DNA from: a virus
Length of the DNA: 20,742 nucleotides
Strand: one strand, 5' to 3'
IMG/VR virus record: IMGVR_UViG_3300025127_000361
Location: 1-20,742 of that record
The translations under genes were made by a program, and so were the position numbers. The notes below the pieces were generated by a model. The model saw only the letters and a program-made list of their open reading frames with translations. It did no database searches and was not told the DNA's origin. This document shows, piece after piece, positions 1 to 17,654 of the stretch; positions within the stretch are counted from its first letter, which is position 1, and the number at the start of each line of letters is the position of its first letter.

Positions 1-796
1 GACCAGATGCACCTGGAGCAGATGTATTAACTTGAGAGTCAATAACAACATTCATGCCTGCGAACTGACCGATTGATCTGTCAGTAACGCCAACACCACC
101 GCCACCCCATTGGATAGCACCGCCAGATGTAAGAGAATCACTAGAGAATGTCAACATACCAACCTGATATAGGTAGTAAGCAACAGATGGGTGAATTACT
201 AGAGTATCTAGCTCTTCTCCTCTTTCTCCAAGAAGTGATCTTGCTCTTGCTGCTGTAGCTGCTGTTAAGAAGTTATCAGCAGTAGCACCAGTACCAGCTT
301 TTGCAATGTCAAGATGGTTAGCACCTAAAGCACCAGAACCCGCAGCAAATAAACCATTTAGATGACTAAATAATCTTGCTGAGTTTAATTTGTTGATAGC
401 ATCTGCAATTTGGTTTCTGATGTGACCCATTGGATCTTCACCAGCAGCCAATACAGCTACGTCATCAACAGCATACGCAAAACCTCTGTGACAGATAGTT
501 GCGATCTGTGTTCCTGTACCAATCTTTTGTGGTGTCAAATAACCATTGTTACTTGTACCCCATGAAGCTGTACCATCTAAGATTTCCTCAGTTGGAGCGA
601 TTGGATTGAACTCTGGAACTTGGATTCTTGTTCCACCTTCTGATGCGTCAAGAAGTGCGTTACGCACAATAGCACCAGACTTAATAAAAGCACTACGTTC
701 TTTGATTGCCTCAGAAACATAGGTGCTCAAATTATTTCTCTTTACGATGTCAGCTAATAAGACACCACCAGAGTAATTCTGAAACGGAGCAGCCAT
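1..796 (-). CDS. Major capsid protein, C-terminus outside window
   Basis: Main shell protein of the phage head. The frame is open from an ATG at 796 to the window edge, about 265 codons, with no stop. The N-terminus reads MAAPFQNYSGGVLLADIVKR, followed by an Arg/Ala/Asn-rich segment, a stretch resembling IRNQIADAINKLNSARLFSH, and alternating Gly/Thr-rich segments, as in the major capsid proteins of several siphovirus groups. It directly follows the scaffold gene, the usual scaffold-capsid order. No good Shine-Dalgarno is seen, so it may depend on read-through transcription of the head operon. The family call rests on remembered similarity and synteny; the missing C-terminus prevents a length check. 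Confidence 0.8.
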   Translation of the reverse strand, partial: MAAPFQNYSGGVLLADIVKRNNLSTYVSEAIKERSAFIKSGAIVRNALLDASEGGTRIQVPEFNPIAPTEEILDGTASWGTSNNGYLTPQKIGTGTQIATICHRGFAYAVDDVAVLAAGEDPMGHIRNQIADAINKLNSARLFSHLNGLFAAGSGALGANHLDIAKAGTGATADNFLTAATAARARSLLGERGEELDTLVIHPSVAYYLYQVGMLTFSSDSLTSGGAIQWGGGGVGVTDRSIGQFAGMNVVIDSQVNTSAPGASG

Positions 797-865
797 TTAG
801 AATAATTTAGAAGTTTACAGTAACCAAGCCACCGACTTGGGTGTTGAATCCACCGAATCCAACAA

Positions 866-1597
866 TTATGATTGAGCCTCTTGCTTGAGCACCGCAGCAA
901 GCTGAGGGTTCTGTTCTGATATTAGCATTTGTTGAGTTATATTGCCCGTTTTCCAAGGGTTTACCTGTCCTCCACCCACATTTGATGTAGGAGTTGGTTT
1001 TGCACCCATTCCTGCAGCAGTGCTTGGTTTGAAATGATGCTCCCAACCACTACCAGGGTTCTTGAGACTTGTGAGATAAGAGTCTAAATCCTGTTCGACT
1101 CCACCATTCAAAATTACAACTTTACCCTCAGCATTTTTTTGTAACTTATTTTGTAATAAAGAAAGAGTCTGTTCAGCATTGATCGCACCAAGGTTACTGA
1201 TGGCTGAAAGTGCCGTTGTCTTTGTAGAAGCTAATTCATTAGAATTTTTTAAATCTTCAAGCTGCTGAGATAAATTAGCTATCTGTTGATCTTTTTCCTG
1301 TGCTGTTTTATTAGCTTCTTCCCAAAGCGTTTTCCATTGCCCTTGATCTTCTAATATCTGTTTTCTCTTTTGCTCTTCTTTTTCATAAACACCATCTAAT
1401 TTACCTTTTACATCATTAAATTTCTCTGACCATTTAGCATCTTTTTCAGCAGCTTCTTTACGAATAGCAGCTAGTTTTTCTTCATATTCTGCTTTTACAG
1501 AATCTAAAGAGGGTGATGGGGGTTGAACAGGTGGTTGTGCTGCAACAGTTTCAGTTGCTTCAGTATTTGTTTGAATTACTTTTTCTTCGATTGCCAT
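866..1597 (-). CDS. Scaffolding protein (head assembly)
   Basis: A 243-residue, Glu/Lys/Gln-rich protein. Residues about 33-120 are strongly helical with heptad-like spacing and should form a coiled coil. A Pro/Gln-rich N-terminal linker (about 20-31) precedes it, and a Gly/Pro/Thr-rich tail (about 185-215) follows. This composition and the position between portal and major capsid protein are typical of phage scaffolds, which template the procapsid and then leave or are degraded. No protease gene is seen nearby, so how it is removed is unknown. It starts at ATG 1597; the stop at 866-868 leaves 69 bases before the capsid ATG. Confidence 0.75.
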   Translation of the reverse strand: MAIEEKVIQTNTEATETVAAQPPVQPPSPSLDSVKAEYEEKLAAIRKEAAEKDAKWSEKFNDVKGKLDGVYEKEEQKRKQILEDQGQWKTLWEEANKTAQEKDQQIANLSQQLEDLKNSNELASTKTTALSAISNLGAINAEQTLSLLQNKLQKNAEGKVVILNGGVEQDLDSYLTSLKNPGSGWEHHFKPSTAAGMGAKPTPTSNVGGGQVNPWKTGNITQQMLISEQNPQLAAVLKQEAQS

Positions 1598-1600
1598 AAA

Positions 1601-1771
1601 TTATTCAGAGAGAGGGTTTGTAGTTTTTTTCTTTGAGACTTTCTTCTTAGTTTCTTTTAGTGCAGGAGTAGGACACGCTTCAGCAACTTTCTGTGCTTCA
1701 GTTTTAGGTTCTACCACTTCCCATTTATATGTTCCATCGGGTTGCAGAACTTTATCAATAGATCCAGCCAT
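1601..1771 (-). CDS. Small lysine-rich protein between portal and scaffold
   Basis: A 56-residue protein starting MAGSIDKVLQPDGTYKWEVV and ending in a Lys/Thr-rich tail. The middle holds a PDGTYKWEVVEP turn/strand-like segment. I do not recognise a function. It sits in the head operon, its stop lies 4 bases before the scaffold ATG and its ATG is about 35 bases after the portal stop, so it is probably cotranscribed and translationally coupled to scaffold. Tight spacing without other coding potential on this strand supports it as a real gene. Confidence 0.6.
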   Translation of the reverse strand: MAGSIDKVLQPDGTYKWEVVEPKTEAQKVAEACPTPALKETKKKVSKKKTTNPLSE

Positions 1772-1805
1772 AATTAATTGTGTACTTGTATATTATCTTA
1801 GCAGA

Positions 1806-3248
1806 TTATTCGGATTTGGCTTCATTTGCTGATGGCAACACTTCTCCCTGTACTAAAATATCTCTAAATTCTTCTCTATCAATAACCTGTTGATCAAATA
1901 ATGATATTAAAGCTGTAATATCCTGTCCAATTAATCTTTCAATATCAAAATCTCTACTAATCTTCACTTCGGGAGGTTCGATACCTACATATTCAGCAGA
2001 TAAGTTAAAACATTTTTGAAGTTTTTGCTCTAATTCCATAGAAACCATTGCAAGCATAGAATTAGTGTCCACTCTATCTAATCTTCGAGCGTCAGCAGAT
2101 TCAGCTACAAACTTCTGTTGACTAAGAGTACTTATTCCAAGAGTAGCCATTTGCATTTGTAATTCCTTAATTTCGGCAGATTGAGCATCAAAAGCACTGG
2201 AAGCTGGCTCTACATAATAAACTTTATTTCCTGGTTGAGTTGCCATTGCATAATTAACAGATATAGCAAGATCTTTGGTTTGATCATCATATCCTTCCAT
2301 TACAAGCATCGGTTGAGATGCAACGTGCAAACTATGAATAAGATCAGCCTGTCTTTGAAAATGTGCAAGATTTAAATAGGCAATATCAAGTAAAGGTGGT
2401 TTACTAACTAAATTATCTGTTTTACCAGAATAAATTGTTACTAAAGGTATTTCTCCAAGAGAAAAACTACCAGTTTCTACCTGTTTATAATCTTTATCTG
2501 CTGAACCCATTTCAAAATTACCCGTAACACTATTATCTGCAACGTCATACATCTCTTCAATCTGTTCTTTTTTACGAAAAATTCTATAACTACCTGGTTC
2601 AATTACTCTTATCTGATCATAAACTTTCTCACCAAACTGCCCATCGGGTAATACTGCTTTTTCAGCTAACCTTACCTGCACTAAATTTCCATAATTAGAC
2701 TCCCTATCAAGTCTCCATCCATAAAGATTTGTAGGATCTACTTCAATCCAATAAGGTCTACGATTTTGCTGTCTTTCCTCAGCAAGAGTCAAAGCACCCG
2801 ATGGAGCTGGATAATCTACAAGTATATGACTTTGACCATAAATTAAAGAACACATCAATACTCTTCTTGCATATTCATCTAAGTCCGAACCACATCCGTC
2901 AACATCCATCTTAAACATCTCTGTCCAATAAGGATCACCTATAAGTGTTATTGGTTTTCTTAATACAAGACCTGTAGCTGCTCTTATTAATCTTTGCGTA
3001 AAAGGACTAAATACTGATCTGTTTACCCTTGCAAGGTAAGCATCATAATCTTCTCTTGGTTCAAGAGGTAAAAATGCTTCAGAATTTTCTCTAAGATACT
3101 CAGTTCCTTCTGTAACAGCCTTCATTATTTCCCAACCTTTCATCATATCTAAAACTGCTCTAGTTCTAGTAAAAGGACTATCAACACCACCTGCAGATGT
3201 TGATGAAACTATATTAGTTCTAATAGAACCTGGGATTGCGTAAGTCAT
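1806..3248 (-). CDS. Portal protein (DUF4055-type)
   Basis: A 480-residue protein forming the dodecameric ring at one head vertex through which DNA enters. Residues about 45-110 hold a Tyr/Leu-rich segment, then RAATGLVLRKPITLIGDP, and about 125-150 the motif ARRVLMCSLIYGQSHILVDY; these match my recollection of the DUF4055 family of portal or head-tail connector proteins. A Gln/Ala/Leu-rich helical part (about 355-390), with AESADARRLDR and a following helix, corresponds to the portal stem/wing region. Length and position after terminase and before scaffold fit. A strong Shine-Dalgarno (GGAGGTG) just upstream of ATG 3248 is embedded in the last codons of the preceding gene. Confidence 0.82.
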   Translation of the reverse strand: MTYAIPGSIRTNIVSSTSAGGVDSPFTRTRAVLDMMKGWEIMKAVTEGTEYLRENSEAFLPLEPREDYDAYLARVNRSVFSPFTQRLIRAATGLVLRKPITLIGDPYWTEMFKMDVDGCGSDLDEYARRVLMCSLIYGQSHILVDYPAPSGALTLAEERQQNRRPYWIEVDPTNLYGWRLDRESNYGNLVQVRLAEKAVLPDGQFGEKVYDQIRVIEPGSYRIFRKKEQIEEMYDVADNSVTGNFEMGSADKDYKQVETGSFSLGEIPLVTIYSGKTDNLVSKPPLLDIAYLNLAHFQRQADLIHSLHVASQPMLVMEGYDDQTKDLAISVNYAMATQPGNKVYYVEPASSAFDAQSAEIKELQMQMATLGISTLSQQKFVAESADARRLDRVDTNSMLAMVSMELEQKLQKCFNLSAEYVGIEPPEVKISRDFDIERLIGQDITALISLFDQQVIDREEFRDILVQGEVLPSANEAKSE

Positions 3249-3249
3249 G

Positions 3250-3522
3250 TTAGCACCTCCATTTTCTTAATGCTAACGCCTTTCTAGTAGGTTTACCGTT
3301 AGGTTTTTTCATTGGTCCAGGCATACCCTTCATTCGGGCACAGAAAGATGCTCGTCTTTTAGCTGCTTTACTTCCAGGTTTCACTTTTCCCGTAACAGGT
3401 GCTTTTAAATTACTACCTGTGGCACGATTGTATTTCGCACGACCTTTAGCAGTAAGTCCACCAGTTTTAGACTTTTCACCCCTGCCTACACTTAAATTTA
3501 CTTGTTTACGTTTTTTTCTCAT
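3250..3522 (-). CDS. Small basic phage protein, DUF6321-type
   Basis: A 90-residue, extremely basic protein. It has GGLTAKGRAKYNRATGSNLK (about 22-41), then a Lys-rich linker, RRASFCARMKGMPGPMK (about 56-72), and ends in RKALALRKWRC. This ordered set of motifs matches the DUF6321 proteins I recall from cyanophages and other marine phages. Molecular function is unknown to me; charge and location suggest DNA or capsid-interior binding (inference). Its ATG overlaps the stop of the upstream gene in an ATGA junction, and its last codons contain the portal Shine-Dalgarno. Confidence 0.7.
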   Translation of the reverse strand: MRKKRKQVNLSVGRGEKSKTGGLTAKGRAKYNRATGSNLKAPVTGKVKPGSKAAKRRASFCARMKGMPGPMKKPNGKPTRKALALRKWRC

Positions 3523-3668
3523 TTGCCCACCTTTACTTGTGCCTTTTTATGGGCTTGAGTAAAAGTATCTCCTGCTCTCATTCGCCTTTTCATAAACTCC
3601 ATGTGCTTTGCACTATGATGCTCAGAATGCTTAGATAATAAAGTTTTTTGGCGAGGAGTTAGTTTCAC
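3519..3668 (-). CDS. Small basic protein with GTG start
   Basis: A 49-residue product if translation starts at GTG 3668: V/MKLTPRQKTLLSKHSEHH, then SAKHMEFMKRRMRAGDTF and an AHKKAQVKVGK end. It resembles small His/Lys-rich cyanophage proteins carrying the pattern KHSEHHSAKHM...TFTQAHK (recollection). There is no in-frame ATG near the N-terminus. The frame is continuous with the tail-tube gene across that gene's TAA stop, and the interval encodes a run of nine A residues, so stop read-through is formally possible. GTG initiation after a purine-rich stretch is simpler. The stop overlaps the next ATG (ATGA). Confidence 0.6.
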   Translation of the reverse strand: MKLTPRQKTLLSKHSEHHSAKHMEFMKRRMRAGDTFTQAHKKAQVKVGK

Positions 3669-3701
3669 TTCTTTTTCTTTTTTTTTCTTAGAACCTTGGT
3701 A

Positions 3702-4121
3702 TTACAAGTCGTTACCGTTAATATCACCATTGGTTGTAAAACTTACACTTACAGTTTCAAGATCACCTGTTGCTGCCGATAAAGTTGTTCCTGTAATAAT
3801 TCCATCAAACGTAACTTTATTAGATCCATTAAGGAATAGTTCAAATTTTGCATCCGCTGGGTCATCTGCCTGTAATACATCTCTTAGTATTTCACCTGTC
3901 GCATCAGTAGCAGTAGCAGCAGTATAGAGAAAATCAACACTACCAGATCCAGAAATTAAACCTCCAACATATTTTCTAGAATTATCGCCATGAGCAGTAC
4001 ATTCTAGAGTATCTTTTGTTATATCAAGAGACCAACCTGTTGTTGAAATAACTGTTGCAAGGGCTTCTGATCCATCTTTAGAAAATTTAACAGAACCCTC
4101 CTCTCCACGAAAAAATGCCAT
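3702..4121 (-). CDS. Tail tube-like major tail protein
   Basis: A 139-residue, mostly beta-strand protein: MAFFRGEEGSVKF, WSLDITKDTLECTAHGD around 29-45, YVGGLISGSGSVDFLY around 51-66, and a C-terminal strand series FELFLNGSNKVTFDGIITGT then ETVSVSFTTNGDI. The order 'DTLE.T.HGD... GL.SGSG' and the closing 'F..NG.I' pattern are typical of tail tube and related beta-sandwich tail proteins of siphoviruses. It would polymerise into the inner tail tube. Its place between terminase and portal, apart from other tail genes, is unusual; a decoration protein is a less likely alternative. Confidence 0.65.
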   Translation of the reverse strand: MAFFRGEEGSVKFSKDGSEALATVISTTGWSLDITKDTLECTAHGDNSRKYVGGLISGSGSVDFLYTAATATDATGEILRDVLQADDPADAKFELFLNGSNKVTFDGIITGTTLSAATGDLETVSVSFTTNGDINGNDL

Positions 4122-4148
4122 GATCCAGAGAAAAAAAGTATTTATATG

Positions 4149-4154
4149 ATTATA
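4149..4154 (-). promoter_or_regulatory. Candidate -10 box before the tail tube-like gene
   Basis: On the minus strand the sequence reads TATAAT at 4154-4149, with a predicted start near 4142 and a leader of about 20 bases to ATG 4121. No convincing -35 element is present. A weak dyad (AACTG/CAGTT) lies upstream after the preceding gene, so the 60-base gap may hold a weak terminator plus internal promoter. Confidence 0.35.
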
Positions 4155-4180
4155 TTACCGTGAAACTGCGTTTTTTACAG

Positions 4181-4435
4181 TTATTTTTTCTTCTTTTTAC
4201 GTCTATGTTGATAACTTATTTTTTTACTACCTGTTTTTTCACGCTTAAATCGTGCTTTTTCAGCACTTGACATCTCTTTTGTTGTCTTAGGTGTCTTACT
4301 TGATACACGTTTACTAGGCCTACAGGCAGGATAACCTCGTTTTTCGCCCTTTGAACGACCACAGGGTTTGCCAGTTTTGACATCAACCCATTTTTCTTTA
4401 AACCAACGGGTTAGACCACCGCTACTTCTTGCCAC
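4181..4435 (-). CDS. Small basic protein, DUF5872-like
   Basis: An 84-residue protein from GTG 4435: V/MARSSGGLTRWFKEKWVDV, followed by GKPCGRS, a YPACRPSKRVS segment and a Lys/Arg-rich tail ending HRRKKKKK. The GGLTRWF.EKWVD..T..PCGR..GEKR.YP.CRP motif matches proteins I know as DUF5872-like. The frame can be extended upstream, but those 30 hydrophobic residues are the other-frame reading of the preceding gene and look non-coding, so GTG 4435 is preferred. It overlaps that gene by 14 bases. Function unknown; it belongs to a run of basic mini-proteins. Confidence 0.65.
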   Translation of the reverse strand: MARSSGGLTRWFKEKWVDVKTGKPCGRSKGEKRGYPACRPSKRVSSKTPKTTKEMSSAEKARFKREKTGSKKISYQHRRKKKKK

Positions 4436-4589
4436 TTTTTTTAGTACCAGAACGATAAGTACCACCACGCTTCTTATACTCTCGTACAAGCCATGCGTTA
4501 GCGTAGGCAGAAGGATAAACAGCAAACTTACGTTTAGCTTCTGCTTTTACCCTAGAGTATAACGCTTTATTTACAGGAACATTCGCCAC
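4422..4589 (-). CDS. Conserved small basic phage protein with GTG start
   Basis: A 55-residue protein: V/MANVPVNKALYSRVKAEAKR, then KFAVYPSAYANAWLVREYKK and RGGTYRSGTKKSGKK. I recall near-identical architecture (Y.RVKAEAKRKF..YPSAYA.AWLV.EYKKRGG.Y) in many cyanophage genomes, where it is unannotated. A perfect AGGAGG Shine-Dalgarno lies 9 bases upstream of GTG 4589, which fixes the start. It overlaps the next gene, also GTG-started, by 14 bases. It is too short and atypical for most gene callers. Confidence 0.75.
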   Translation of the reverse strand: MANVPVNKALYSRVKAEAKRKFAVYPSAYANAWLVREYKKRGGTYRSGTKKSGKK

Positions 4590-4644
4590 GTTTCTTACCT
4601 CCTTTCTTTTTCTTCTTCTTTTTCTTAGTCGTAGAATGGTACAT
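4567..4644 (-). CDS. Possible 25-residue lysine-rich peptide
   Basis: ATG 4644 opens MYHSTTKKKKKKKKGGKK, ending RGECSCK. It starts about 17 bases after the terminase stop, and its GGK codons form the AGGAGG Shine-Dalgarno of the next gene. It may be a real mini-protein or only a coupling leader that keeps ribosomes near the next gene. Low-complexity lysine codons make coding evidence weak. Confidence 0.35.
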   Translation of the reverse strand: MYHSTTKKKKKKKKGGKKRGECSCK

Positions 4645-4661
4645 AGTAAGAATTAGGTTTC

Positions 4662-5912
4662 TTAGTATATTCTAAACGAAGTTTGACCTAATGTCTCTGG
4701 TTTTGCCAAGTTAAATTGCTGTAAACAAAGATAACCAAAAGCATCAAAAGCATGATCTACACCCAAGTTTTTATTAGGCAATCCAGTATTTGGTGCATAT
4801 GTAAGAGTTCTAAGCGATTTTATCAATTCTTTACACCTCGGATGGATAAATGTTCTTCGATCACCAGCTGCATCAAAAAGTGCCGTATTGACAGCAGTGA
4901 TCTTATCTCTAATCTTCCAAGGAGCCTTCGGACTCGACACGGTAAAGCCACTTCTTCGTAAAATTGTATGATCCGTAAGCCCAACTCCACTTGTTTTGCG
5001 AGCACCACCCGTAGGGTCGGGACAAGTAATAATTCTTCTCTCAACACCATATCTATTTACCACTTCTTCGGCAAAATCCCATGTAGTAGCACCTCCTCTT
5101 AAGATAATTTCGTCAAAAACATACAAATTTTCATTATTTTTTACCGCACATATGCCACAAAGAGGGTCTACGTTAAAATCCACTCCCATATATAGCGGTA
5201 ACATATGTAAATCCTGCACTTCGGACGAAATATTCTCGTCATCAAAGCTAATTGCCACTAATCCCGTAAGATTTTCAAAGCTCGCTTCAAATTCTTGTCT
5301 AAATGTACGATTATCTAGCTGACCTCTAGCTGCTTCAACTTCTTCTTTCGGAACATTACCCCCCTCAATCGTAGTAAAACTCCACCTCTTCCAATCTCCA
5401 CTTTCATCTTCGGGTACATAACACCATAAATCGTAAAACCAACTTGCCGTTCCATCAGGTGTTGAAATAAATAATGCCCATCCCTGTTTATCAGCTAACG
5501 CAGGTCTTATAACTTCAGACCATACCTCTTTGTCCATAAATGCAGCTTCGTCTAATACAACTCCACTTAAACTACGACCTCTTAATGCCATCGCATTTTC
5601 AGTCCCTTTTAACTCAATAGTGGATTCATTTACTAATTCAATTTTTAAATCTGTCTCATTCTTAGACTTGATCCACTGCTTTGGTACTAACTTCTTTAAT
5701 GTTTTCCATGCAATGTCCTTTGCCATTCGATATGTAGGTGCACAATAAAAATATGTTTCTCCAGGCTTTGCAATAGCTCCTTTCAATAACTCAACACAGC
5801 TTAAATAACTTTTACCAAATCTTCTTCCAGCTACTAACACCCTAAATCTTTCTTTCGCACTAAATACTTCCCCTTGTGCCCAACGTAAACTTAACGGTTC
5901 TGCTACTGCCAT
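4662..5912 (-). CDS. terL: Terminase large subunit (packaging ATPase/nuclease)
   Basis: A 416-residue motor that pumps DNA into the prohead and cuts it. The N-terminal ATPase has Walker A AGRRFGKS (28-35), Walker B GVVLDEAA (117-124) with the catalytic Glu after Asp121, and the coupling motif STP (150-152). The C-terminal RNase H-like nuclease begins at YMGVDFNVDP (241-250) with a putative metal-binding Asp245; later acidic residues around 297 (CPDPTGG) and near the C-terminus (GVDHAFDAFGY, about 388-398) fit the remaining metal ligands. Length matches compact TerL proteins. It is first in the minus-strand head operon. Confidence 0.93.
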   Translation of the reverse strand: MAVAEPLSLRWAQGEVFSAKERFRVLVAGRRFGKSYLSCVELLKGAIAKPGETYFYCAPTYRMAKDIAWKTLKKLVPKQWIKSKNETDLKIELVNESTIELKGTENAMALRGRSLSGVVLDEAAFMDKEVWSEVIRPALADKQGWALFISTPDGTASWFYDLWCYVPEDESGDWKRWSFTTIEGGNVPKEEVEAARGQLDNRTFRQEFEASFENLTGLVAISFDDENISSEVQDLHMLPLYMGVDFNVDPLCGICAVKNNENLYVFDEIILRGGATTWDFAEEVVNRYGVERRIITCPDPTGGARKTSGVGLTDHTILRRSGFTVSSPKAPWKIRDKITAVNTALFDAAGDRRTFIHPRCKELIKSLRTLTYAPNTGLPNKNLGVDHAFDAFGYLCLQQFNLAKPETLGQTSFRIY

Positions 5913-5933
5913 ACAAAAATAATAACCTCTATT

Positions 5934-5942
5934 ATCATAACA
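5934..5942 (-). promoter_or_regulatory. Candidate extended -10 promoter for the terminase/head operon
   Basis: The minus strand reads TGTTATGAT at 5942-5934, an extended -10 element (TGn plus TATGAT). No good -35 is seen, as expected for extended -10 promoters. A GAGG Shine-Dalgarno-like sequence lies between it and ATG 5912. Confidence 0.35.
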
Positions 5943-6039
5943 GCAACTTATTTCGTGTTGTATCAGCAGGTTCCCCGCCCCTGGCTAAAATAAAGTTTTT
6001 TTTGAGACTACACCCCCTAGTAACAAATGATACACGCTA

Positions 6040-14107: not shown

Positions 14108-16318
14108 ATGAGTTTGTTAAAGTTTGTAAAGTCACTGCCTGCTGACTTTGTTTGTGCTCCTATTTATAAAAAAGGATCAAAATTAATATCAGGAACTTTA
14201 TCAAAAGGTAAAACACCTTTAGAAGATTCACACCATAGAAAATACACACCCGCAGACGCAGCTTTAGCGATGCGTCAAAACTATGATCTGCAAGCTATCG
14301 GTCTTTGGACAGGTATCCGTGGTAATGGTTATGTAATTCTTGATATAGATGCAGAACTAAAAATATATGAAAAATTATGGGGTGAAGACTTAAAAGACGC
14401 TCCAAAGATTACTTCAACTAAAAAAAACGCAGCTAAGTTTGTTTTTAAAATACCTAGCGATAGATGGACAGGATTAAGAGGTTTTGGTCTTGGTGATAGA
14501 AACTATGAAATTCTATGGGGTAGGCAAGGAGTATTAAAAGGCTTATATCCTGGACATGAGCGCACAAACACTCCCGAAGGTGAATATACACTAAAAGGAG
14601 ATTTACATAACGTCCCTGACGCTCCTGAGTGGCTTATAGCTGAAATGAAGGAGAAAGAAGATACAAATATTATAAAAAAAGATATTGATTTTACAGATCG
14701 CACTCAAGATGAAATTGCACAGATCATTGCAGATTGTATTTCAGTAATACCACAAAAAGGTACAGGTAGTAGAGATCATTGGGTGAGAGTGGGTATGGCG
14801 ATCCATTCTGTATTACCTAACGACTTAGGTTTACATTTATGGGCATCTTGGTCATCTGAAGATCCAGATTATGCAGAAGAATGGGAGAATGGTAATCCCT
14901 GTAAGGATGTTTTCTATTCCTTTAAATCAAAATCAAGTGGCATAGGTTTAGGTACACTCATTTGGCTTGCAGATAGAGAAGATCCCGAAAGAAGGAGGTT
15001 TACTGAAACTGTAAAAAAGATTGTTGAAGAAGCAGAATCACGCTTCATACAAGAAACAAGATTATCCGTACCAAAGTTTGAGGATCTTATAAAAGAAGCT
15101 AAAGATTTATTGGATATAGATAATCCAGCTGAAATGAATTACAAGCTTAATGCTTTATCAATCAAAGCTGGTTATCGAGATCAACAAGGTATCGAAAAGC
15201 TCTTAATAGATCAGATGAAATATGAAAATTCTTCTGAGATAATGACAGTAGAATCGTTGATGAATTTGGAAGTAGAGAGAAACTTTACCGTACCAGATAT
15301 ATTACCTTCACCATTTACTGTCTTACTTTTCGGTTCAGGTGGAGATGGTAAATCAATGTCTGCTTGGTCTCTTGCGAAGCACGTTGCAACTGGTAGTCCC
15401 TTTCTAGTTCGAGGCAAATATATGCCAGTACAGAAGGGTCCAGTTCTTCTTTTGAATGGTGATCAGTCAATGGTTCAGCTTAAAGAACAGTTGGAGGATA
15501 TTGAATATCCAATGGACACCGATACTTACATTCTTGGTGATTGGTCGCTCCAGAACTATGCAAAGTTTATAAAGTTGATGGAAACTGTAAAACCAAAATT
15601 AGTTATCATTGACTCCCTAATTGGTTGTAGCGGAGGTAAAGGTTTTGATGAAAACAAATCTGATTTTGCTACTCCTCTTTATTGGTTAACTCAAAACAAT
15701 GGTTCATTATGGGAACCAACTTCAATAATTGTTATCCATCACGCTAATAAAAATGGTGGATTTAGAGGTACTTCTGCTATCAGAGATGGTGTAGATGAAA
15801 CTTGGGCTTTGAAAAAACCAACTGATGATCTCGTAGGCAGAGTTGGTAGTAACGCTCGAATTATAGAAGTAGAAAAATCTCGTATCGGTAGATCAGGTCT
15901 TTCCTTAATTATGAAGATGGAAGATGATCTTACTTACAGTATATCTGACTTCACACCAGAAATTGCTTCTAACGATAATACACCTGCAAATATTACAGAT
16001 AAAATTTTACAGAGAATGAGATCAGTACACCCCGAAACTCGTTCAAAATACGATCTTTTATATGATCCTTTGATTGGTGGTAAAACTGGAACTATAAGAA
16101 AATCGCTCCAAAGATTAGAGAAAAGAGGTCTTATAGAATTTGTAGAAGAAAATAAAGAAGGTAAGAAATATAGAGCTATCCTCGCACGGGGGGAGGCCGT
16201 GGAGACTGTCCCACCAGTAGTAGATGATAGTGATAGCAGTACAACTGGGTCGGGACAGCATGATGGGACACCAAATACCTGTCCCACTAACATTGATGAT
16301 GGGACACTTGCTAAATAA
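14108..16318 (+). CDS. Primase-polymerase/helicase fusion (PriPol-PriCT-AAA)
   Basis: A 736-residue replication protein. N-terminal primase-polymerase (AEP) part, about 1-190: YTPADAALAM, then GLWTGIRGNGYVILDIDAEL with D79 and D81 as metal ligands, and a later Arg-rich segment. PriCT-2-like middle, about 205-300: DHWVRVGMAIHS (223-234) and HLWASWSSEDPDY. C-terminal RepA-like ATPase: Walker A GSGGDGKS (409-416), Walker B KLVIIDSL near 497-504, and a sensor IIVIHHANKNGG. A winged-helix end contains TGTIRKSLQRLEKRGLIEFV. It would prime and unwind DNA at the fork. The final 50 residues are low-complexity and encoded over TGTCCCA repeats. Confidence 0.85.
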   Translation: MSLLKFVKSLPADFVCAPIYKKGSKLISGTLSKGKTPLEDSHHRKYTPADAALAMRQNYDLQAIGLWTGIRGNGYVILDIDAELKIYEKLWGEDLKDAPKITSTKKNAAKFVFKIPSDRWTGLRGFGLGDRNYEILWGRQGVLKGLYPGHERTNTPEGEYTLKGDLHNVPDAPEWLIAEMKEKEDTNIIKKDIDFTDRTQDEIAQIIADCISVIPQKGTGSRDHWVRVGMAIHSVLPNDLGLHLWASWSSEDPDYAEEWENGNPCKDVFYSFKSKSSGIGLGTLIWLADREDPERRRFTETVKKIVEEAESRFIQETRLSVPKFEDLIKEAKDLLDIDNPAEMNYKLNALSIKAGYRDQQGIEKLLIDQMKYENSSEIMTVESLMNLEVERNFTVPDILPSPFTVLLFGSGGDGKSMSAWSLAKHVATGSPFLVRGKYMPVQKGPVLLLNGDQSMVQLKEQLEDIEYPMDTDTYILGDWSLQNYAKFIKLMETVKPKLVIIDSLIGCSGGKGFDENKSDFATPLYWLTQNNGSLWEPTSIIVIHHANKNGGFRGTSAIRDGVDETWALKKPTDDLVGRVGSNARIIEVEKSRIGRSGLSLIMKMEDDLTYSISDFTPEIASNDNTPANITDKILQRMRSVHPETRSKYDLLYDPLIGGKTGTIRKSLQRLEKRGLIEFVEENKEGKKYRAILARGEAVETVPPVVDDSDSSTTGSGQHDGTPNTCPTNIDDGTLAK

Positions 16319-16644: not shown

Positions 16645-16929
16645 ATGACACCAGTAAAAGAAACTAAAGAATACAATCGCATCTTTAGAAAAGTATTATT
16701 TCAAGTACTTATAGACCCAACAAGAGGTAAATTATTTAAAAATATTTGTGAAGCTAAAGGTGAAAAGGCAAGTGCTGTACTTAGAAGATTAGCGTACCAA
16801 TATGCCGAAACTTATGCAGATGGAGAAGATTACAAAGATGCAGAGTCGGAAGATATGAGACTTATGAATAAAGCACAGGAAAGTCGTATCGCAAACGGAT
16901 TTAATTGGACTAAAAAGTGCGAGGACTAA
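16645..16929 (+). CDS. Small protein, possible ribbon-helix-helix regulator
   Basis: A 94-residue protein: MTPVKETKEYNRIFRKVLFQ, a helical, basic segment RGKLFKNICEAKGEKASAVL then RRLAYQYAETYAD, followed by an acidic loop and an end GFNWTKKCED. The phrase 'LF..IC.AKGEK.S.VLR.L.Y.Y' is like a ribbon-helix-helix (CopG/Arc-type) DNA-binding unit. If so it could bind the TGTCCCA array 260 bp upstream (inference). Its 3' end slightly precedes the methyltransferase start, so they are probably cotranscribed. Confidence 0.5.
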   Translation: MTPVKETKEYNRIFRKVLFQVLIDPTRGKLFKNICEAKGEKASAVLRRLAYQYAETYADGEDYKDAESEDMRLMNKAQESRIANGFNWTKKCED

Positions 16930-16931
16930 GA

Positions 16932-17654
16932 ATGTTAGATACCTTTGCGGGTATCGGTGGTTTTTCTTACGCTGCTACTAAACTGGTGGGAGGATATAGA
17001 ACTACACAATTTATTGAAATTGATCCATTTTGCCAAAAGATTCTTAAAAAACATTTTCCATTCACTCCAATCCATGATGACATCAGAACATTCACAGCTA
17101 TCCCTGGACAATATGATGTCATCTGTGGAGGCTTTCCCTGCCAATCAATATCAGTGGCAGGAAATAGAGTTGGAATCACAGAAGAATCCAGATCAGGTAT
17201 CTTTTACGAACTCATGCGAGTCATACGCATGGTTCGACCAAGATTCGTTGTCTTGGAAAACGTGGCAGCGATCCTTAATAATGGATTGGACATCGTTCTC
17301 GGAGAGCTTTCCCAAGCAGGGTACGATGCAGAATGGTCAGTTATATCTGCGAGTTCATTGGGAGCCTGTCATAGAAGAAGCAGATGGTGGTGTGTCGCAA
17401 CGCTTACCAACCCCCACAGCAAGAGATTACAAAGGCAGGACTTCGGTGAAATGGAACGAGAAATATGGACCAAAGGTGCTACCAGATGTCTTAACCCAGA
17501 TTGGAGATCATATGTCAGTAAGCCCATACTTCGTAGAGGAGATGATGGGCTATCCTATAGGGTGGACAGAACTAAAGCCCTCGGAAATTCAGTAGTGCCA
17601 CAAGTTGCTGCTATTCCATTAAAAAGAGTACATGATCTTTATTACAATGAATAA
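16932..17654 (+). CDS. dcm: DNA (cytosine-5) methyltransferase
   Basis: A 240-residue methyltransferase transferring a methyl group from SAM to cytosine C5. Motif I DTFAGIGGF (3-11), GGFPCQSIS with catalytic Cys70 (motif IV), ENV (109-111, motif VI), HRRSR (147-151, motif VIII), then a short region, and DRTKALGNSVVP (212-223, motifs IX/X). All catalytic motifs are present. It is short: the target-recognition stretch between motifs VIII and IX is only about 50 residues, so specificity cannot be read. An AGGA sits just before ATG 16932; an in-frame GTG at 16917 is less likely. No partner restriction enzyme is seen, so it is probably a solitary phage methylase. Codons are doubly constrained by an overprinted frame. 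Confidence 0.9.
   Translation: MLDTFAGIGGFSYAATKLVGGYRTTQFIEIDPFCQKILKKHFPFTPIHDDIRTFTAIPGQYDVICGGFPCQSISVAGNRVGITEESRSGIFYELMRVIRMVRPRFVVLENVAAILNNGLDIVLGELSQAGYDAEWSVISASSLGACHRRSRWWCVATLTNPHSKRLQRQDFGEMEREIWTKGATRCLNPDWRSYVSKPILRRGDDGLSYRVDRTKALGNSVVPQVAAIPLKRVHDLYYNE
17113..17595 (+). CDS. Overprinted protein in +1 frame inside the methyltransferase
   Basis: A second frame, open from 16945 to 17595, lies wholly inside the methyltransferase. From ATG 17113 it gives 160 residues. It shows a signature I recall from a recurrent unnamed phage/prophage protein family: AFPA near the start, WFDQDSLSWKTWQRSL, FSESFPKQGTMQNGQ, LPTPTARDYKG, and VSPYFVEEMMGYPIGWTEL at the end. Codon by codon, these are the +1 reading of methylase motifs: GFPCQ gives AFPAN, LENVA gives WKTWQ, and the motif IX/X DNA gives MMGYPIGWTEL then KPSEIQ. 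Function unknown. GGA lies 5-8 bases before ATG 17113. Upstream residues of the open frame look like shadow. Confidence 0.5.
   Translation: MMSSVEAFPANQYQWQEIELESQKNPDQVSFTNSCESYAWFDQDSLSWKTWQRSLIMDWTSFSESFPKQGTMQNGQLYLRVHWEPVIEEADGGVSQRLPTPTARDYKGRTSVKWNEKYGPKVLPDVLTQIGDHMSVSPYFVEEMMGYPIGWTELKPSEIQ

Follow-up and report, generated by a model that had tools for sequence, protein, structure and literature searches.

A phage C5-methyltransferase gene carries an overprinted +1 reading frame that probably encodes its recognition subunit

A virus record of 20,742 bases from IMG/VR, analysed here over its whole length (the window), contains a cytosine methyltransferase gene in which the +1 frame is also open over a long distance. 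This raises the question of whether one stretch of DNA encodes two proteins and, if so, what the second of them does. The +1 ORF runs from TTG to TAG at 16945-17595 (+ strand; 216 aa, 218 codons from stop to stop) and sits inside the methyltransferase ORF at 16917/16932-17654. An earlier note on this DNA had pointed out the long stop-free frame and a recurrent protein signature within it whose blocks coincide with methylase motifs, and had left two readings: ancient, selected overprinting or mere shadows of methylase genes. The length (218 codons, compared with a maximum of 120 after codon shuffling), the signature and the placement of its blocks were all confirmed. Elsewhere in the window, genes for a major head protein, scaffold, portal and terminase lie on the minus strand (window 1-6000), while a PriCT-2/AAA_25 primase-helicase-like gene (14108-16318, + strand) and a gene for a ribbon-helix-helix protein (16645-16929) lie 5' of the methyltransferase gene.

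The frame-0 product, termed alpha (16932-17654, + strand, 240 aa), is the catalytic subunit of a C5-methyltransferase and matches Pfam DNA_methylase (5.6e-39) and TIGR00675 (1.7e-31). It starts at ATG 16932, with GAGG at 16921-16924, seven bases 5' of this codon, or possibly at GTG 16917. Motifs I, IV (PCQ, within GFPCQ at 17130-17144, + strand, which is invariant in A6), VI (ENV), VIII and X are all present. However, the alpha profile matched M.HhaI over residues 5-184 and then 297-318, the second segment corresponding to motif X of alpha (TKALGNSVVPQ..., 17571-17639, + strand), and skipped the target-recognition region (TRD) and motif IX. Neither of these was found in the alpha chain itself by profile alignment, and an AF2 model shows a linker. 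This model is confident (pLDDT 87, pTM 0.82) and resembles M.HhaI over ~163 columns (Foldseek, E 3.9e-13); the linker, which joins motif VIII to motif X (residues 161-210, pLDDT 56-68), is the frame-0 reading of DNA (17412-17561, + strand) that carries the LPTP module described below in the +1 frame.

The +1 coding region appears to be shorter than its ORF. TTG 16945 is not credible as a start, since the +1 frame of most relatives is interrupted by a stop further in; the commonest last stop corresponds to alpha codon 43 (47 of 89 relatives), and an ATG is found at codons 53-55 (~17074-17077 in the window) in 85 of the 89. Together, these stops and the conserved ATG indicate a conserved protein of ~172 aa, termed beta (17077-17595, + strand; a start at 17074 is also possible), which would be translated by internal initiation near 17077. 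The 5' open part of the frame (16945-17073, + strand) is unconserved, has stops in relatives and probably lies outside beta. The earlier note's extent of 16945-17595 is therefore right for the open frame and probably too long for the protein. The ATG itself is not strong evidence for a start, since the HDD residues encoded there in frame 0 favour ATG, and no Shine-Dalgarno sequence for beta is conserved among the relatives. Protein-level constraint on the +1 frame starts only near 17187, and the N-terminal ~35 codons of the presumed beta show none. From there, a dual-coded stretch (17187-17396, + strand) encodes alpha motifs V-VIII together with the N-terminal part of beta (..SFTNSCESYAWFDQDSLSWKTWQ..FSESFPKQGTMQNG..), both frames being constrained. 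This is followed by a putative target-recognition module beginning LPTPTARDYKG (17404-17514, + strand), where the +1 frame is the better conserved of the two, and by a motif IX-like segment, SVSPYFVEEMMGYPIGWTEL (17515-17574, + strand), which forms the C-terminal end of beta. The beta stop, TAG 17593-17595, sits within the alpha motif X codons GTA GTG (VV).

Database searches with the +1 product gave no Pfam or NCBIfam match, and the N-terminal part of beta resembled nothing known in profile and sequence searches. Comparison of the beta profile with PDB sequences yielded weak chance matches only. The beta monomer model was poor and Foldseek returned nothing for it; the most confident part of this weak model is a C-terminal strand-turn-strand-helix (127-145). 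The product does match PHROG phrog_1008 collinearly (3.5e-23), a "DNA methyltransferase" family of 329 positions that is annotated as methyltransferase only.

A +1 frame of this kind could be a shadow, if alpha and the codons that encode it were all that kept the frame open and similar between genes. Part of the +1 signature does follow from conserved frame-0 motifs, and most of the loci are known from metagenomes only. Codons were therefore exchanged among synonymous positions, which keeps both the protein and the codon usage. Genes shuffled in this way still averaged 18-45 bits on the +1 profile, so the coincidence of signature blocks with methylase motifs is partly dictated by frame 0, while the excess over the shuffles reflects selection. 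The longest +1 run in the window, 218 codons, compares with a shuffle mean of 64 and was reached by 0 of 500 shuffles. Likewise, no shuffle out of 500 reached the observed length in 82 of 89 unique relatives, in which the +1 frame has on average 5.8 stops against 12.0 after shuffling; the third forward frame of these genes has 4-48. On the +1 profile, the real gene scored above all 40 of its shuffles in 236 of 237 unique genes, a set that includes 73 genes from bacterial and archaeal genomes, all above every shuffle. Because the loci of this test had been found partly via the +1 motif, a second sample was chosen solely by means of alpha from an Acinetobacter phage; here, all 75 genes exceeded all shuffles, as did seven phage methylases from the alpha search. 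In contrast, close relatives of M.HhaI, used as controls, have no +1 ORF (3/3). Openness also holds in the other direction: frame 0 has no stops across the beta modules, compared with 456 and 289 expected in two sets when beta codons are shuffled, the first of these contrasts being inflated because that set was chosen with frame 0 open.

Patterns of substitution show where each frame is under selection. Among 33-35 independent pairs of relatives, variation at alpha codons 1-90 falls mostly at position 3, as usual, but position 3 is strongly conserved from ~codon 93, and at codons 160-220 position 1, which is the wobble base of the +1 frame, is up to six times more variable than position 3. Downstream of the beta stop, position 3 is again the most variable. 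The inversion recurs, in weaker form, in the TRD of the Acinetobacter-type sample. Each difference was additionally sorted by its effect in both frames across 32 independent pairs. In the TRD and motif IX, the rates per opportunity were 0.151 for changes silent in both frames, 0.017 for those changing beta only and 0.054 for those changing alpha only; beta-only changes are thus ~9 times rarer than doubly silent ones, and the +1 frame is the better protected of the two. The corresponding rates were 0.112, 0.032 and 0.017 in the motif V-VIII region and 0.072, 0.063 and 0.011 before beta, where there is no constraint on the +1 frame.

Both controls proposed in the earlier note, +1 stops against codon-shuffled genes and substitution in two frames, therefore came out in favour of overprinting, the latter clearly so. 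Purifying selection acts on both frames beyond the synonymous controls, as in protein-coding overlapping genes, and the +1 protein is a real coding sequence. The overprinting is ancient and selected, with fewer stops than shuffled genes and conservation beyond what frame 0 demands. Given these scores, an inversion confined exactly to the +1 ORF, the rarity of beta-only changes and the M.HhaI-like controls, a shadow artefact has next to no probability. It is rejected for the window-like clade on the shuffles, the position-specific substitution and the substitution classes, which also rule against the idea that the recurrent +1 proteins are nothing but methylase shadows.

The function of beta is suggested by the motif that it carries. 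When 91 betas were compared as a profile with canonical methylases, the best match fell exactly at motif IX (LTPxECERLQGFPDGWTE), with single-comparison hhalign E-values moving from 0.062 to 0.0068 and then 4.9e-5 as the canonical profile was deepened, although this match spans 31 columns only and has a probability of 68%. Single-chain relatives provide a second line of evidence. In three Lentzea loci and in Mycobacterium phage Papez, a frame-0 motif IX of the beta type (LSPRFVEWLMGLDAGWVT) occurs with motif X in one chain. In Nocardia ninae (L175), frame 0 encodes the LPTP modules as well as motif IX, and in the Mycobacterium phages Wachhund, ShiLan and Philonius the same elements belong to frame 0 of an annotated single CDS. 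The module region of these four evolves as ordinary frame-0 coding sequence, position 3 being the most variable. A segment with frame-0 modules and motif IX matches 571 phage records, nearly all of them actinophages (frame checked in three), and some of the actinophage single-chain genes also retain a +1 ORF with further LPTP modules. The presence of these elements in frame 0 of relatives puts the LPTP modules and LNPxFVEWMMGYP at the positions that TRD and motif IX occupy in a C5-methyltransferase. In Wachhund and ShiLan (L430 and L431), the frame-0 modules and motif IX are preceded by a +1 ORF that encodes modules and the N-terminal part of beta. At another locus (L320), the alpha frame runs directly into the beta motif IX (..EPELVEWLMGWPIGWTDL..), apparently via an indel.

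A tblastn search with the +1 product found 46 phage records, mostly Mycobacterium and Stenotrophomonas phages plus Synechococcus phage S-H1; six of these regions were examined, and all of them have the match in the +1 frame of the annotated methyltransferase. Among 301 beta-match loci, 299 are +1 to an alpha and the other two are fragments at contig edges that also fall within a methylase. Six-frame searches of seven whole bacterial genomes gave the same picture, with 18 of 18 beta loci overlapping alpha at +1, and no standalone beta was found in either set. Beta of the window has one LPTP module, as do 112 of 338 betas, while the remaining 226 have two to five. Clustering of these modules yielded 27 recurrent clusters in 86 multi-module arrangements, the same cluster being found at different positions; the largest cluster is heterogeneous as a result of simple single linkage clustering. 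Such arrays look as exchangeable recognition domains would, if each module reads a DNA site. Some beta modules (L052, L054 and L107, +1) contain an insert of ~100 aa that resembles a helix-turn-helix (TIKELAAKTTIKKTTIEHWFRKDKAGFSYPSIENW), with both frames open. In addition, 15 IMG/VR loci (L395-L409) combine a canonical frame-0 motif IX with a long +1 ORF of 160-268 codons at ~alpha codons 125-212, which ends in the TRD and bears a different recurrent signature (..WGMSINGRFLTAKTSESPRTGKESSLSDILEENPDPKYFLS..). Its length was unreached by any of 100 shuffles in 14 of the 15 and variation at position 3 is reduced over codons 160-212, so this is possibly a second type of overprint.

Real coding does not by itself make beta part of the methyltransferase. 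It could have an unrelated function, such as anti-restriction or regulation, with a convergent likeness to motif IX, and the short, moderate profile match, the poor fold prediction and the unfamiliar N-terminal part are in keeping with this. Yet the motif that beta carries is exactly the one that alpha is without, in single-chain relatives frame 0 links these modules and this motif to motif X, and beta was never seen apart from alpha; an unrelated role is accordingly quite improbable, and the +1 product, presented in the earlier note as a second protein in its own right, is best read as a second subunit of the same enzyme. How beta is made is a separate matter. Programmed +1 frameshifting near codon 90 would fuse the alpha N-terminus to beta, which would then not be internally started. 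The sharp onset of +1 constraint near that codon, the unconstrained +1 frame over codons 53-90 and the lack of a conserved Shine-Dalgarno sequence or start codon just 5' of codon 90 would fit such an event. Against it, the ATG at codons 53-55 lies just past the commonest stop, even if its conservation may owe something to frame 0, no invariant slippery site was obvious on inspection of relatives, and M.EcoHK31I is described as two separate polypeptides (PMC3404938). We regard frameshifting as unlikely.

Taken together, we consider it highly probable that this stretch of DNA encodes a two-subunit C5-cytosine methyltransferase of which beta is the missing recognition subunit. Frame 0 would provide alpha, the catalytic domain with motifs I-VIII and X, whose linker would be nothing more than recognition-module DNA translated in frame 0. 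Beta would come from the +1 frame, with an N-terminal part followed by at least one LPTP target-recognition module and by motif IX, making up a small DNA-recognition domain. Beta would be initiated internally near 17077 and assemble with alpha into a single enzyme. This would methylate phage DNA at a site determined by the beta modules and probably shield it from host restriction. The split enzyme is supported by the dual selection, an alpha without motif IX, a beta with a motif IX-like segment that occurs only at +1 to alpha, and the relatives in which a single chain unites modules, motif IX and motif X. Counting against it are the missing conserved Shine-Dalgarno sequence, the unconstrained N-terminal codons, the poor beta model, the brevity of the motif IX match and the predicted TRD of M.EcoHK31I, which is placed in the large subunit.

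M.EcoHK31I, an E. coli enzyme that recognises YGGCCR, is the closest precedent. Its small ORF, of 176 aa compared with ~172 aa for beta, was reportedly found by Lee, Kam and Shaw in 1995 to lie within the large ORF in a different frame, as the second ORF does here. The enzyme is described as a larger polypeptide with motifs I-VIII, X and the predicted TRD and a smaller one with motif IX (PMC3404938). Compared by description, the locus shares this architecture, with motif IX on the predicted second polypeptide and motif X on the large one, but its TRD-position modules, one to five per gene in the family, would belong to beta. M.EcoHK31I was not identified among the plasmid matches listed. In M.AquI, another two-subunit C5-methyltransferase, motif IX and the distal variable region are likewise in the small subunit (PMC3404938); there, however, the small subunit carries motif X as well and the two chains divide inside the variable region, whereas here motif X is in alpha and the frames overlap. 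Tandem, shuffled modules of a kind that may correspond to those of multi-TRD methyltransferases occur in the family, with one module in the window. The multispecific methylases of Bacillus phages are single chains encoded in one frame. Their tandem recognition modules lie between motifs VIII and IX and vary by phage (PMC8936443, PMC12707154), while the putative recognition modules here are in an overprinted frame.

Given the precedent of M.EcoHK31I, an overprinted split methylase is not categorically new, and the earlier note's view that no out-of-frame partner of C5-methylases had been described is weakened. No description of a widespread form was found in the literature searched, which was mostly without subscription papers and without REBASE. 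What is new is how broadly the form occurs, in phages and in genomes of bacteria and archaea, together with the proposed assignment of recognition modules to the overprinted frame as one to five shuffled cassettes and an apparent frame switch in actinophages, as read from the sequences. The cassette array is in +1 in most loci and in frame 0 or both in actinophages. An array that moved between frames implies that each cassette has to remain readable in both frames while it is shuffled. On balance, we favour the view that very many phage and prophage methylases now annotated as one protein are split enzymes, their specificity residing in overprinted, interchangeable recognition cassettes of this kind.

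If this is true, half of an enzyme would have been missed by gene finders in very many phages and prophages, and the annotated protein expressed alone may be an inactive methylase. The annotated protein would not reveal the methylation specificity, as the recognition modules would lie in the other frame. The family would be an unusually broad example of long dual coding on a single strand, in which natural single-chain relatives show the role of each frame and overprinting and subunit splitting could be studied together.
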